64,000 nucleotides of DNA. It comes from Ashinkailepas kermadecensis. Its lineage: Eukaryota; Arthropoda; Thecostraca; Neolepadidae. Under the pieces are notes generated by a model. It had not been told where the DNA came from, made no database searches, and saw only the letters and a list, made by a program, of their open reading frames with translations. The stretch covers positions 1,986,001 through 2,050,000 of the forward strand of contig JAOTOM010005185.1 in the NCBI GenBank assembly GCA_034440615.1, in the 5' to 3' direction. Shown here piece after piece: positions 11,173-57,696 of the stretch (position 1 is the first letter of the stretch; each line of letters begins with the position of its first letter). A program made the translations under genes and the position numbers.

Positions 11173-11229
11173 ATTGATGGACTATGTGGGCTTAAGGGCG
11201 CACGAACTGCTAGCGGTTATCTAGCTTCG
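11173..11229 (-). mobile_element. retroelement 3'-end fragment, 57 bp
   Basis: On the minus strand it has the GCGCCCTTAAGCCCA core of the 3' module but lacks the well-paired 5' half of the hairpin. The direct repeat TTGTGGGTA flanks it at 11164-11172 and 11230-11238. The repeat is only 9 bp, so this insertion is less certain than the 17616 and 55310 copies. Confidence 0.5.
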
Positions 11230-17615: not shown

Positions 17616-17667
17616 TTGGTTGTTGGAGATTAGGGGCGCGGCGACTGCGTCGGTCATGCGGCGCCCA
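17616..17667 (-). mobile_element. 52-bp hairpin-only retroelement insertion with 15-bp target-site duplication
   Basis: Read on the minus strand it is the 3' module of the local non-LTR element and nothing else: TGGGCGC, GAC, a 7-nt loop, GTC, GCGCCC, then a short tail ending CAACAACCAA. Direct repeats GTTGGCAGCATTTGG (17601-17615) and GTTGGCGGCATTTGG (17668-17682) flank it with one mismatch. The insertion is complete between the repeats, so its 5' end lies at the base of the hairpin. Confidence 0.8.
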
Positions 17668-24540: not shown

Positions 24541-24596
24541 GTGGTGGTGGATTTGTGCTTTAGGGCGCGTCGACTGCATTGGTCATTTTGCGCCCA
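24541..24596 (-). mobile_element. retroelement 3' hairpin module
   Basis: Minus strand: TGGGCGC, AAAAT, GAC, CAATGCA, GTC, GAC, GCGCCC, then TAAAGCACAAAT and a CCACCACCAC tail. The hairpin geometry is the same as in the copies at 17616 and 55310. It is inserted at the edge of the 17-bp array. GCAGACTGG occurs on both sides but is not adjacent, so I do not claim a target-site duplication. Confidence 0.65.
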
Positions 24597-27753: not shown

Positions 27754-28854
27754 TTGATTGATTGATTATTGGGGTTTTAGGGTGCGTCAACCCCAGTGGG
27801 TTATATTGCACCCATAACAAGCTTGTTTAATCACACATCAGATTGCCACATATGAAGAGCGCTTAACAGAGCAAATATGTGGAAGCAAATTATCAGCTAG
27901 GAATGTGTGTATATTACTTCAAATCCTATATCTGCAAGGAAGCACAAAACCGCTCTGTTGTGTATAAATCTGGAATAGTTTCCCAACAAATCGTCCAACT
28001 TCAGAGTATTAGAATCACATCCGAAGTGACGCCTACGTTCTTCCGTATATGCTGGGCACGCCACCAGCACATGGTGCACAGTTAGCGCGGCATTACACCT
28101 CATACATTTCGGCCTTTCTTGCCCGCACAATAAATACCTATGTGTGGCTAGCGTTTGGCCAATTCTGAGTCGACAGATGGCCACCTCGTCCCTTCTAGTT
28201 TGGCTGAAGGAGGAGGGCCACAGCGCTATATGTGGTTTGATTTGCTTTAATTTGTTGAACTCTATTTGGTCCCATCTGCCCTGCCACTGTCTGATAATAA
28301 ATGATGAGATAATTGGATAGTGGTCACTGGCTCGAAGTGGGAGCACGAGTCTATTTGGTGCTTGTGCTGCACGCCTTGCAGCCTGATCGGCCAGCTCGTT
28401 ACCACGTATTCCGACATGTGCTGGGATCCAGCAAAGTGTTACTTGTTTTCCCATGTGATGTATCGAAGGAAGTTGAGATAAAATGTATCGTACAATGACA
28501 TGCCGCTGGTTAAAACTGCGCAAGGCCAAAAGACTGCTCAGAGAATCGGTCGAAATAGCATGTGTATCCTCGTCGTCGACTTCGATGTATGAAAGGGTTT
28601 TGCTGATGGCTGTCAACTCGGCAGTAAAGACCGTGGCGTGTGGCGGCAGGGAAAAAGAACTTGTGGTCGATCCCCTAACGAAAGCACTACCCACGCCTGT
28701 GTCTGTCTTTGAACCATCTGTGTATGTGACGATGTAACCGTGATATGCTGAAGAAATGAGCTCTAATGTACGTGATAGTAGTTCCTCTTTTGTCACATCT
28801 TGTTTTCTCTGGACAGCGAGGGAAATGTCAATGAAGGGGGAGACCAGTTCCCAC
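27754..28854 (-). mobile_element. 5'-truncated non-LTR retrotransposon, 1.1 kb, with 14-bp target-site duplication
   Basis: GGTGCAGTCAGAGA repeats exactly at 27740-27753 and 28855-28868. Between them, on the minus strand, lie the C-terminal part of a reverse-transcriptase polyprotein (frame open from the 5' junction to a TAG at 27899-27897), about 80 nt of 3' UTR, a hairpin with outer stem GGGTGC/GCACCC, and a short tail of AATC repeats against the left duplication. The endonuclease and reverse transcriptase domains are missing by 5' truncation. Intact frame and exact duplication suggest a recent insertion. RNase H plus the CCHC motif point to the I/Jockey/R1 assemblage of arthropod non-LTR elements; the exact clade cannot be decided without the reverse transcriptase. 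Confidence 0.9.
27897..28854 (-). CDS. RNase H and CCHC C-terminal fragment of a non-LTR retrotransposon polyprotein (partial)
   Basis: About 319 codons, open from the 5' junction of the insertion to its TAG. There is no ATG at the start: the first in-frame start-like codon is a GTG at 28796, so the peptide is a truncated piece that is not expected to be made on its own. Residues below count from that GTG. The RNase H motifs are in order: YTDGSK with Asp27, AEL with Glu60, ISTDS with Asp84, and WIPAHVGIRGNELAD with His127 and Asp137, so all catalytic positions are present. In retrotransposons this domain removes RNA from the RNA-DNA hybrid. Downstream, Cys231, Cys234, His242 and Cys247 form C-x2-C-x7-H-x4-C, the nucleic-acid-binding knuckle usual at the end of such proteins. 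No stop or frameshift interrupts it. Confidence 0.9.
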
Positions 28855-28868
28855 GGTGCAGTCAGAGA

Positions 28869-29690
28869 CTTTAGGATGGGTTGGGCAGGTAATCCTCACA
28901 GCTCGATATATACGCAGAACAAACTAGCTCAGCGTTAAACAATGAATAACCAAGACAGAGCGTTCCCTGCAAAAACGTTCCCATGGTGCCACCATTGACA
29001 GTACATACAGTATGCAACATTCCAAGTTGTTAAACGTTTCTCTAAAAATTTCAGGCAGCAGCCAAGTGCCTGAAATGTATGCGATTTGATGTGAAGTTTG
29101 GAAAATATACCTCACTATTTTAGCCGTGCCTGGAACCGTCATTGAACAACTCCAACAAACAAGAATTTCCATAAAGGAAATTCCATCCAGGGCAATTATT
29201 GCCGACGTAACTGTTGAAAAACGCGATGTGACGATAAGGAATAATGCAACTGAAGGTATATTCACGTATTTGCAGAGCAAAGTGTGCAATGCAGCTCCAT
29301 CCCGATAACAAAGACGTTCAAATATTGGTATACTTGGTAGGTTCAGCTTAGTACTGATAGCTGATAATTCTCAATACTGATCAAACATCGAATCCTGCAG
29401 AGTAAGTCTATCATTTCCGTCATCAGCCAGCTAGATAAGATATACTGCACAAGGATATTGCATGCTTTTAGCGTGCACATTGCATGCTTTTACCGTGCTG
29501 AGGTGTAACTCAAATACATTCACGAACTACAAGAACCGCTCTACTCAAATAGCCCTACCTGAAAAGGCTGAACAACCCATTGGTAGCTGCACATGTTCGG
29601 CATGAAGAGCCAAAGATAAGATGGACGCGTCGCAAACGGACCTGACGATAGGCCACATCTGGCACACCCACGACACACATAACCCGTGCA
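28869..29690. other. unassigned AT-richer sequence
   Basis: No gene or repeat recognised. A short direct repeat, TTGCATGCTTTT, occurs twice near 29457-29493. Confidence 0.45.
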
Positions 29691-38260: not shown

Positions 38261-38328
38261 TTTGATTGATTGATTGATTGATTATTTGGGTTTAAGGGCG
38301 CGCCGACTACAGGGTTATTTGACGCCCA
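38261..38328 (-). mobile_element. retroelement 3' hairpin module with AATC tail
   Basis: Minus strand: TGGGCGT, CAAAT, AAC, CCTGTA, GTC, GGC, GCGCCC, TTAAACCCAAATAATC and further AATC units. It is the closest relative of the 27754 element's tail. Possible flanking repeats share GTAGTCTA and GTAGC with a 4-bp indel (38248-38260 and 38330-38346), so a target-site duplication is plausible but unproven. Confidence 0.65.
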
Positions 38329-54790: not shown

Positions 54791-55012
54791 CCTGAGGCAG
54801 CCGCGACCTGAGGAAGCCCGCGACCTGAGTCAGCTGGCGACCTGAGGAAGCTGGCGACCTGAGGGAGCCGGCGACCTGAGGAAGCCCGCGACCTGAGGAA
54901 GCCCGCGACCTGAGTCAGCTGGCGACCTGAGGAAGCTGGCGACCTGAGGAAGCCGGCGACCTGAGGAAGCCCGCGACCTGAGGAAGCTGGCGACCTGAGG
55001 AAGCCGGTGACC
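54791..55012. repeat. 17-bp minisatellite, about 13 copies
   Basis: Units are GCGACCTGAGGAAGCCC, GCGACCTGAGGAAGCTG and GCGACCTGAGTCAGCTG, arranged in an alternating order that itself repeats. Confidence 0.93.
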
Positions 55013-55309
55013 TGGGTGACCTGGGTGACCTGCTGGAGTGCTCGTTGTGTAACTGTCCGGTGAATCAGTGGAGATGGTGCAATTCACTTTGCATCACAGC
55101 TTCAGTGATTGGGATCTCGACAGAGACCACGTTCAGTGCAGACAGCGTGAACACGTCTGCCGCGTATAGGGGGGGGGGGGTGCACAGCCAGCCAGCAAGC
55201 CAGTCGTAGTTTGTCAACGTTACTGCTTGGGAACTGCACGAAGGCTAACGGTAGGCTTTCCTACTCAATAAATGAACCAGGACATCATCAGTGTAGCGCA
55301 GTCCAATAG

Positions 55310-55360
55310 TTAGTTATTTGGGCTTTAGGGCGCATCGACTGTATAGGTCATATAGCGCCC
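55310..55360 (-). mobile_element. 51-bp hairpin-only retroelement insertion with exact 14-bp target-site duplication
   Basis: GCGCAGTCCAATAG occurs exactly at 55296-55309 and 55361-55374. The 51 bp between them read, on the minus strand, GGGCGC, TATAT, GAC, CTATACA, GTC, GAT, GCGCCC, then TAAAGCCCAAATAACTAA. The whole insertion is therefore the 3' hairpin and tail of the local LINE/SINE pair, starting exactly at the first base of the outer stem. Confidence 0.88.
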
Positions 55361-55374
55361 GCGCAGTCCAATAG

Positions 55375-56049
55375 CTCCAGTCAAAGTAAAGATAAGAGGA
55401 TTGCGCATTCACTAAGATACAGCTTCAATCTATCCTACAACGGAACTTCAGTCAGACTGTCACAGCCAGACTCAGCGCGCGACAAAACGTGCCATGGGTG
55501 TAACAGGCTACATGACAAGAACGGCGGCCCTCCCACCAGCTTCATACAATTATACCATGAGCCCCGTGGTGATTCATGACAAGAAATGACTTCAGAACAA
55601 CCCTGCCAATTTCAGACCGCGTGCTACATCGCGATACCGCTTACATGGTTACAAACACAAAGGTTCATGGCAGGTGTAAACATCACACCACGACGCCACG
55701 TAATCTTCTATAAACGTTCGAAGCCAGTAATCACAATCACACACCCAGTCAGCCGCGATGTGGTCAGGTAGCCGGCGACGCACCATCCTGACGCTCCGAG
55801 CGTACTCCTCCGCCATTCCCAGGGGAGAAACTCTTCCGTGCGGCGGCGCCCGCCCCGCATCACGCACGCGCATGCAACACATGTTTATTCAATGCGGCAG
55901 TGTGCTTGGCGCGAACAGCCGGAACGGAAAGCGGCGGCGCGGCGGGGTTTACGAGAGGCGTTGGCGGCGGAAATGGCGGCTCGGACGCCGTCGCCGCTGG
56001 CCCCGACCAGGTGAGGTGGCTCTGTGGCCTGCGGACGACGCCTGACCAC
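55375..56049. other. unassigned
   Basis: GC-rich from 55760. No gene supported. Poly-G of 12 lies just upstream at 55169-55180. Confidence 0.4.
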
Positions 56050-56275
56050 CCACCCGCGCCAGGTGGCCGGGGCCACGGCGCCGGCACACCACGTGACCGG
56101 TGACGTCGCCTGACCACGCGGCGCCCTGTGGCCGGGGCCACGGCGCCGGCACACCACGTGACCTGTGACGTCGCCTGACCACGCGGCGCCCTGTGGCCAG
56201 GGCCACGGCGCCGGCACACCACGTGACCGGTGACGTCGCCTGACCACGCGGCGCCCGGTGGCCGTGGTCACTGTC
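56050..56275. repeat. about 65-bp tandem repeat with E-box and CRE-like motifs, 3-4 copies
   Basis: Units contain GGCCACGGCGCCGGCACACC, ACGTGACCGGTGACGTCGCC and TGACCACGCGGCGCCC. Each copy brings CACGTG and GTGACGTCG close together. Regulatory meaning is inference. Confidence 0.88.
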
Positions 56276-56921
56276 GGGCAGTACGCAATCCCTGGCAGGT
56301 CACACCGGGACACACGGGTCGAGACAGAACGCAGCACATGATTCACATCGGCACCAGCTCACCCAATGCAGCCGGATATTACCTCACCACAGCAACACTC
56401 GAGTCAACAGGACTATCCTTCGTCCATCTTGGCGTAACCACTCTAGCAGCCGTTCTCTGATATCGAAGTTATACGGCACGCCGGTGGCTCAGGTTGAAAC
56501 CAGTCGTCGTCACAGAGGACCGTTGGCTGGCAAAGCGGTGTTTCGTCGCAACAACGTGAATAAAAATGAAGGCTTATTTATTCGGTCAACACAGGAGCCC
56601 AACGTCGGGGGTGGCGATCGAATCCCCTAGCCAAAACGAAGGTAGCGATTAGCCTGAGACATACACCATATATGTTAAACGCAAAATACAGTGTTGGTCC
56701 CATCCCAAGGCCCAGCACGGATACATCCGACTCCAAAAAGTACTTGTCAGCCATATGAGAGGGAAACAATTGCGCATTTTATTTCATGTAAAACAGCTGG
56801 AACACGATTTGCATTTGCTTACAGATTTAGTAATTGATGCAAATTTTGGCGCATCATCCCCCATGCCGTTAGACCACTTGTCACGATAGCTGGCTAGGTT
56901 GCTGTAGAGCTAGCCATAGAG
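56276..56921. other. unassigned
   Basis: No gene, RNA or mobile element recognised. Confidence 0.4.
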
Positions 56922-56979
56922 TTCCCTGCAAGCATAAACACCGACATTGTTTAGGCTTGCAGGGAAGCCTAAACAATGT
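56922..56979. repeat. two overlapping, mutually exclusive hairpins
   Basis: Hairpin 1 is a perfect 15-bp stem, 56944-56958 (ACATTGTTTAGGCTT) with 56965-56979, loop GCAGGG. Hairpin 2 pairs TTCCCTGCAAGC (56922-56933) with GCTTGCAGGGAA (56955-56966). They share bases 56955-56966, so only one can form at a time. Confidence 0.8.
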
Positions 56980-57139
56980 AGGTGGGTATGGGAGGGGGAG
57001 GCTAACAAAAGTATACCACCTTTCATTAGAGTTAACCACATGACATGGAACTAGCATCCAGTGTGCTAATGTCAGCGGCAATCACGGTCGGAGGTGCAAC
57101 GCGAGGCTGATAAGCGTAGTGGCCATTAACGCACACCTT

Positions 57140-57168
57140 CGATGCGCCCTAAAGCCCTAATAACTAAC
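57140..57168 (+). mobile_element. 29-bp retroelement tail insertion with exact 13-bp target-site duplication
   Basis: TAACGCACACCTT occurs exactly at 57127-57139 and 57169-57181. The 29 bp between are the 3' half of the hairpin and the tail: CGATGCGCCC, TAAAGCCC, TAATAACTAAC. The 5' half of the hairpin is missing, so truncation fell in the loop region. It is the only clear copy on the plus strand. Confidence 0.8.
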
Positions 57169-57181
57169 TAACGCACACCTT

Positions 57182-57696
57182 ACTGTGCTGACGATCTGTT
57201 TACTACCAGATGCCATCCAATAGCCAACGGCTGCTCCAACGCCCGGCGCAGTCGGCTGCGGTTTCTACGAAGCCGTATTGTCGGATTCGTCTGCGTTTGG
57301 TACAACGGGCTGACGTCGAGTATGAGGTCACACACGAGGTCACACACACGAGAACGCGCGATGCCGCTGTCGACAAGCAGCAGTGACGGACACCAGATAC
57401 TCCAGAACCCCCCACCCCCGTGAGCACGCCCAAACCGGCTATCTCCCTCCCTATTTCCAATCGATTATATTCTAGCATCAGTGTTCCCCGAAGCCGTGCC
57501 ACAGTGTACATCCATCACTCTCCGTAGACCTGAATGGTCTGTAAGCGGACAGGCGATTGTCGTCCTCCCTATGCACAACGTCCATATGGGTGTTCCACGA
57601 GACAGGTCCCATATCTGACAGCGCAGCTCCAATGGCACATACACTCGCTGTGTGGATCGCCAAATAAGCGCCGCATAGCTGCGTCTGATGCCGTGC
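57182..57696. other. unassigned
   Basis: No gene recognised. GAGGTCACACAC is duplicated near 57324-57350. Confidence 0.4.

Follow-up and report, generated by a model that had tools for sequence, protein, structure and literature searches.

The 51 bp at positions 55310..55360 of the window (the whole 64-kb stretch of DNA analysed) are a retro-insertion, read on the minus strand, that consists of only a 3′ hairpin and its tail; its origin by target-primed reverse transcription (TPRT) by a LINE is well supported. We incline, with somewhat more belief than doubt, to the view that the LINE recognises its own RNA by the folded 3′ end, and that elongation commonly goes no further than the hairpin. 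Insertions of the LINE in this genome are often confined to its last 50-60 letters, a hairpin with its tail, and the most frequent end of the copies lies at the hairpin or 1–2 letters past it, which hints at a fixed checkpoint in LINE copying. The 5′ truncation of LINEs is usually ascribed to incomplete reverse transcription with no fixed end point. In this natural collection of insertions a single end, just past the 3′ structure, is preferred, and early TPRT elongation (or the integrity of the template) thus becomes directly testable with a short RNA. Such copies may also give rise to insertions of ~50 bp, which repeat finders could overlook.

The insertion in the window and its parent LINE

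The first-pass annotation described an exact 14-bp duplication around the 51 bp, and this is borne out. The sequence GCGCAGTCCAATAG is found exactly twice in the window, at 55296..55309 and 55361..55374, and two matches with up to one mismatch occurred in 0/100 dinucleotide shuffles of the window. A chance repeat as the origin of the flanking 14-mers is ruled out by these shuffles, by the z-score of the fold and by the shuffled flank pairs given below. On the minus strand the 51 bp comprise a 33-nt hairpin (55328..55360; outer stem GGGCGC/GCGCCC, inner stem GAC/GTC, and a loop), assigned from its fold, the hairpin model and pair counts, followed by an 18-nt tail TAAAGCCCAAATAACTAA (55310..55327) with a CTAA-type repeat end. 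The genome contains 4060 exact matches to this 18-mer, and none to its reversed control. The 51 nt have a predicted fold of −14.9 kcal/mol (z −3.36), equalled in 0/200 shuffles; the hairpin with two flanking bases gives z −2.55 (2/200 shuffles), and one sister copy −2.37 (5/200). The hairpin scores 73.3 bits against the hairpin model R1, the training set of which includes this copy.

The model has eight matches at E < 0.01 in the window, five of them in the training alignment, and it also matched unsought copies in the flanks of other loci. A 29-bp insertion at 57140..57168 (plus strand) is reduced to the tail and 3′ half of a related hairpin, between exact 13-bp duplications TAACGCACACCTT (57127-57139 and 57169-57181). 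Older copies lie on the minus strand. That at 17620..17666 is hairpin-only, with one T before the stem and a 15-bp duplication with one mismatch. The copy at 38282..38327, found as a hairpin match, has a TCAA tail and AT before the stem and is probably hairpin-only; its duplication, which contains an indel, was seen by eye only, and none was called by script. A further hairpin match at 24549..24595 adjoins a minisatellite and has no assigned duplication. Minisatellite arrays are very numerous in the window (1-64000), with 124 Tandem Repeats Finder rows including overlaps, some arrays exceeding 1.5 kb.

The hairpin and tail had been attributed to the local LINE, and this attribution fails. The window's own LINE is represented on the minus strand by the 3′ part of ORF2 (27897..28895; RNase H domain, PF00075, 5.2e-12) and by a 3′ end at 27766..27813 where the hairpin is homologous but has the stem GGGTGC/GCACCC and a TCAA tail; it therefore belongs to a different family. 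The parent family is present, for example, in the sampled locus L044; there the same hairpin and tail form the end of an element that codes for an endonuclease and a reverse transcriptase. Upstream of the hairpin (L044:335-381) are separate open frames matching endonuclease (PF14529/PF03372), reverse transcriptase (PF00078) and RNase H (PF00075). Since the RNase H lies downstream of the reverse transcriptase, we take this LINE to be a candidate I-superfamily-like element. Its reverse transcriptase has homologues in 871 proteins, and the best 120 of the 871 are mostly without a name.

The target-site duplications of the insertions are variable in sequence and the 3′ tail is intact, as in TPRT by LINEs. 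An empty site is available for one sister copy, a hairpin-only insert of 52 bp with a 16-bp duplication that lies inside a repeat (L055). Three paralogues of that repeat (L047, L060 and L068) are identical over 80 bp, with a single 16-mer and no insert, and two more (L056 and L062) have the same empty site with one base different. These five empty paralogues indicate that the sister copy arose by insertion with duplication.

Where the copies end

The assembly (907.7 Mb in 4689 contigs) was searched with the window locus, and the best 40 of 596 first-look candidates were scored. This gave 40 places with the hairpin and tail, and one weaker relative. Alignment begins at the exact stem base in 38/40 of these best-scored copies, the exceptions being the window locus itself and L005, where the match begins earlier. 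Twenty-six of the 40, including the window copy, are hairpin-only: their LINE sequence goes no further than the stem base, and a duplication was called by script for every one. The least clean of the 26 are L020 (nested in the CTAA tail of another copy), L024 (one mismatch) and L036 (five bases between stem and duplication). In the remaining 14 (13 independent, as L016 and L035 have common flanks) the LINE sequence continues. Their 5′ ends lie 14, 17, 17, 149, 191, 297, 333, 463, 478, 916 and 1903 nt upstream relative to the L044 LINE, and in three further copies at least 1498, 1995 and 1999 nt upstream, these being lower limits set by the length of sequence retrieved; the 333-nt copy (L004) has a further piece past an interruption. 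The long copies are thus scattered over ~2 kb, with no cluster comparable to that at the stem base.

A second sample was drawn without regard to likeness. For the 27-mer GATGCGCCCTAAAGCCCAAATAACTAA there are 595 matches in the genome (reversed control 0), and the first 71 in contig order were taken, made up of 30 loci, 40 short stretches and C1384 (the long copy L039). Two other multicopy repeats, the L046 and L047 groups, carry hairpin-only insertions, which account for 37/70 sampled copies (20 + 17). Counting each repeat-borne insertion once and restoring three filter-merged LINE copies leaves 35 independent insertions, or 36 with L039, and these were assigned to classes by reading of the sequences. 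Sixteen of the 36 start at the stem base, 14 of them with duplications (one with a mismatch); of the other two, L085 has a gapped duplication and for L058 none was found. Starts at +1 to +5 with shared bases account for 2/36 (L076 and L090), and 8/36 are long or unresolved, L054 and L079 being the least certain. In a further 10/36 the end lies within the hairpin. Seven of these start in the 5′ arm or just within it; among them L063 and L074 lack a duplication, and L091 has extra bases. The other three start in the loop or 3′ arm (L059, a 30-bp insert; L077, 25 bp; and L089, without duplication). Ends inside the hairpin with duplications are found in L059, L065, L077, L106 and L113 as well as at 57140 in the window, and the inserts of L077, L059, L113 and L106 measure 25-48 bp. 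The insertions are thus not a single fixed unit, since some are truncated inside the hairpin and others are long. Within LINE family D only 3/11 sampled insertions are at the stem base, by reading. Another copy (L011:2326-2363) starts inside the 5′ arm and lacks a normal tail, having GCCC and then Cs, with a 13-bp duplication.

Genome-wide, the exact family-A hairpin 30-mer occurs 141 times, preceded by TAT in 63 and by GTTAT in 48 (reversed controls 0). The five LINE bases GTTAT before the stem are therefore lacking in 93/141 exact hairpins, as counted copies with kinship included; we estimate from the few per cent divergence among long copies that mutation of these five bases would hide ~8. 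GTTAT is present in 34 of the first 100 of the 141, and in 12/30 that also have the exact tail. Of 69 copies in which the 3′ half and tail are exact, 39 have no exact 5′ half, for which mutation, subfamily or truncation are alike possible. The excess of breaks at the stem base over variable 5′ truncation that had been proposed is upheld by the two samples and by this count (26/40, 16/36 and 93/141).

Junctions were analysed in 95 matches, from several families and including the window, to a 20-nt hairpin-end motif with up to four substitutions. A duplication scored at 9 bp or more accompanies 59/95, compared with 5/468 shuffled flank pairs, and in 45 of the 59 the duplication has its edge at −5..+1, compared with 2/468 shuffled flank pairs; as one repeat-borne insertion is represented by two variants, the 45 reduce to 43. 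Most of the long copies are among the 36 motif matches without duplication. The base at −1 is T in 33/36 and that at −2 is A in 20/25, and T is found at −3 in only 2/10, where the LINE has GTTAT. In 34 junctions with bases before the stem, the number matching the LINE is 2 nt (n = 17), 1 nt (n = 13), 3 nt (n = 1) or none (n = 3). From these matches it follows that the end of copying is fairly sharp and lies 1-2 nt outside the stem, the usual edge being one or two templated bases (T or AT) within a pile-up that spans 0-5 nt. The insertion at 55310..55360 does start at the first base of the stem, as originally described, but in most stem-base sisters T or AT of the LINE intervenes. Untemplated bases are present at 14/34 junctions, or 11/31 if L073, L087 and window position 11182 (shifted or degenerate stem) are left aside. 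One hairpin copy (L037:179-243) has a loop ~18 nt longer, with a 9-bp duplication.

A hairpin common to the LINE and a tRNA-Val SINE

Judged from its sequence variation, the hairpin is an RNA structure that is common, in altered letters, to the LINE and a tRNA-Val-derived SINE. SINE loci include L009:3044-3197, L022:2486-2638, L036, L042, L045, L048 and L054, together with others, and ARAGORN identified the head as tRNA-Val(CAC) in 5/7 loci scanned. The 3′ hairpin of the SINE has the stem CGACGC/GTGTCG, a compensatory version of that of the LINE. The head is kept in 19/21 SINE rows, the other two being tandem units in L038, and hairpin-only forms number 0/21. In L038:3240-3431 there are three tandem units of ~74 bp of the SINE 3′ end, joined through the CCAA tail.

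Pair counts were made on two alignments. That of the hairpin with no SINE rows (A1) gave a weak result; the observed values were reached by 15 (percentage paired), 42 (pairs), 7 (two-sided cells), 250 (further pair types) and 14 (score) of 500 shuffles. The corresponding numbers for 12 LINE and six SINE rows together (A2) were 0, 6, 0, 471 and 0. Four pairs in A2 change on both sides (6/500 shuffles), in 14 cells (0/500), 12 of the 14 coming from one SINE family and so representing few independent events.

The bases beyond the stem are also complementary. In all 12 LINE rows the stem is preceded by GTTAT and the tail contains ATAAC or ATAAT; 6/6 SINE rows have ATTGG and CCAAT at the corresponding places. 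The predicted outer helix, GUUAU/AUAAC in the LINE or AUUGG/CCAAU in the SINE, forms part of the minimum-energy fold of 8/12 LINE and 5/5 SINE rows, and is absent from the predicted fold of L018, L015, L023 and the window LINE. Its covariation was left out of the pair counts because the register slides. Note that the mini inserts end inside this predicted helix.

LINEs of the stringent type, which need a 3′ stem-loop common to SINEs, are known from UnaL2 and ZfL2-1/ZfL2-2, as described in the accessible part of PMC4176376. The likeness lies in a 3′-terminal stem-loop with a simple tail, in a SINE with a similar 3′ structure, and in the presumed recognition of the stem-loop by the LINE protein (PMC4176376). 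In the present genome a LINE and a tRNA-Val SINE have the fold in common, in altered letters, and this SINE would be a candidate partner of the LINE. By contrast, ZfL2-1 and ZfL2-2 are of the L2 clade, whereas the present LINE has an RNase H after the reverse transcriptase, and inserts reduced to stem-loop and tail, as found here, are not described for UnaL2 or ZfL2-1/ZfL2-2 in that part of PMC4176376. The SINE found here is an example of the tRNA-derived SINEs with a LINE-like 3′ end, which have the same hairpin architecture and a repeated tail; the hairpin-only inserts differ from them in having no tRNA head.

Possible origins of the hairpin-only insertions

The first-pass annotation proposed two routes, a stall of the enzyme after the hairpin or a tiny hairpin RNA as template; either may apply, and the first is closer to the scheme that we prefer. 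In this scheme the LINE enzyme would nick the target and prime on the CTAA tail. The tail and hairpin would then be copied, elongation commonly failing past the 3′ recognition module (an ‘abortive’ TPRT), and the short cDNA would be joined to the other target strand, in some cases together with a few untemplated bases. In a minority, copying would pass the checkpoint and extend by hundreds to thousands of nucleotides. Where ends inside the hairpin are accompanied by duplications, they suggest that an intact fold was being copied and that the enzyme often came to an early stop, since a template that has to fold for recognition should otherwise not yield them. Four observations count against a stop of the enzyme: the sharp edge, the untemplated bases (as from template run-off), the retention of the SINE heads, and the 3/11 of family D. 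The heads kept in 19/21 SINE rows indicate that the hairpin by itself is not a stop for all enzymes in this genome.

Copies of LINEs truncated at the 5′ end, with untemplated bases or microhomology at the 5′ junction, are reviewed in PMC2881922, and in the accessible part of that review they resemble the present insertions in lacking the 5′ part and keeping the 3′ end. They differ in that truncation here is concentrated within a few bases of the 3′ hairpin and not spread. Our search of the literature, from which subscription papers were mostly absent, returned no paper recognisable as reporting hairpin-only LINE inserts or a preferred end just past the stem-loop.

The sharp edge and untemplated bases, together with the copying of full SINE RNAs, suggest that the template may itself end at the edge of the hairpin. 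Cleavage or trimming of the LINE RNA might proceed from its 5′ side as far as the 3′ structure bound by the enzyme, and the LINE enzyme would then copy the remainder to the very end, which we regard as a real but tentative alternative. The predicted RNA would be a ~50-nt hairpin and tail from A(−2) or U(−1), starting AUGGGCGC and ending in the CUAA tail. The edge at −1/−2 with untemplated bases beyond it is as expected for such a template; the GUUAU of 12/12 LINE rows has its U-A step exactly at the edge, and copying is complete for short SINE RNAs, whose hairpin is similar. However, the 10/36 ends inside the hairpin would require templates without the recognised fold. A more specific proposal, that a discrete ~50-nt RNA cut between GUU and AU in the conserved outer helix serves the LINE enzyme regularly and very productively as a template, we consider rather doubtful; if true, the hairpin fragment would be the commonest retrotransposed form of the LINE.

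It is improbable that hairpin and tail are a self-standing non-autonomous element, i.e. a minimal SINE transcribed from its own copies. The high share of hairpin-only copies, and the existence of several hairpin variants as hairpin-only inserts, would fit such an element. Yet inspection of the 51 bp by eye revealed no recognisable promoter, no Rfam family matched in 55000-57500, and the C and T forms of one variable loop site are both found in hairpin-only and in LINE-continuing copies. Nothing in the analysis pointed to self-propagation of the 51-bp unit.

Copying might instead proceed further and the cDNA fold into its own hairpin; repair enzymes acting while the second strand is attached would then cut or re-prime at the hairpin base. 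Such a fold would be open to the cDNA, and an edge at its base would be consistent with this, but the ends inside the hairpin would be left unexplained, and we judge this route very improbable. Ordinary random 5′ truncation with a coincidental start at the stem base is scarcely credible: truncations elsewhere do occur, but its simple form is contradicted by a length distribution in which an interval of a few bases holds 26 of the 40 best-scored copies and 16 of the 36 independent insertions, while the long copies extend over ~2 kb, and by the 93 of 141 exact hairpins that lack GTTAT.
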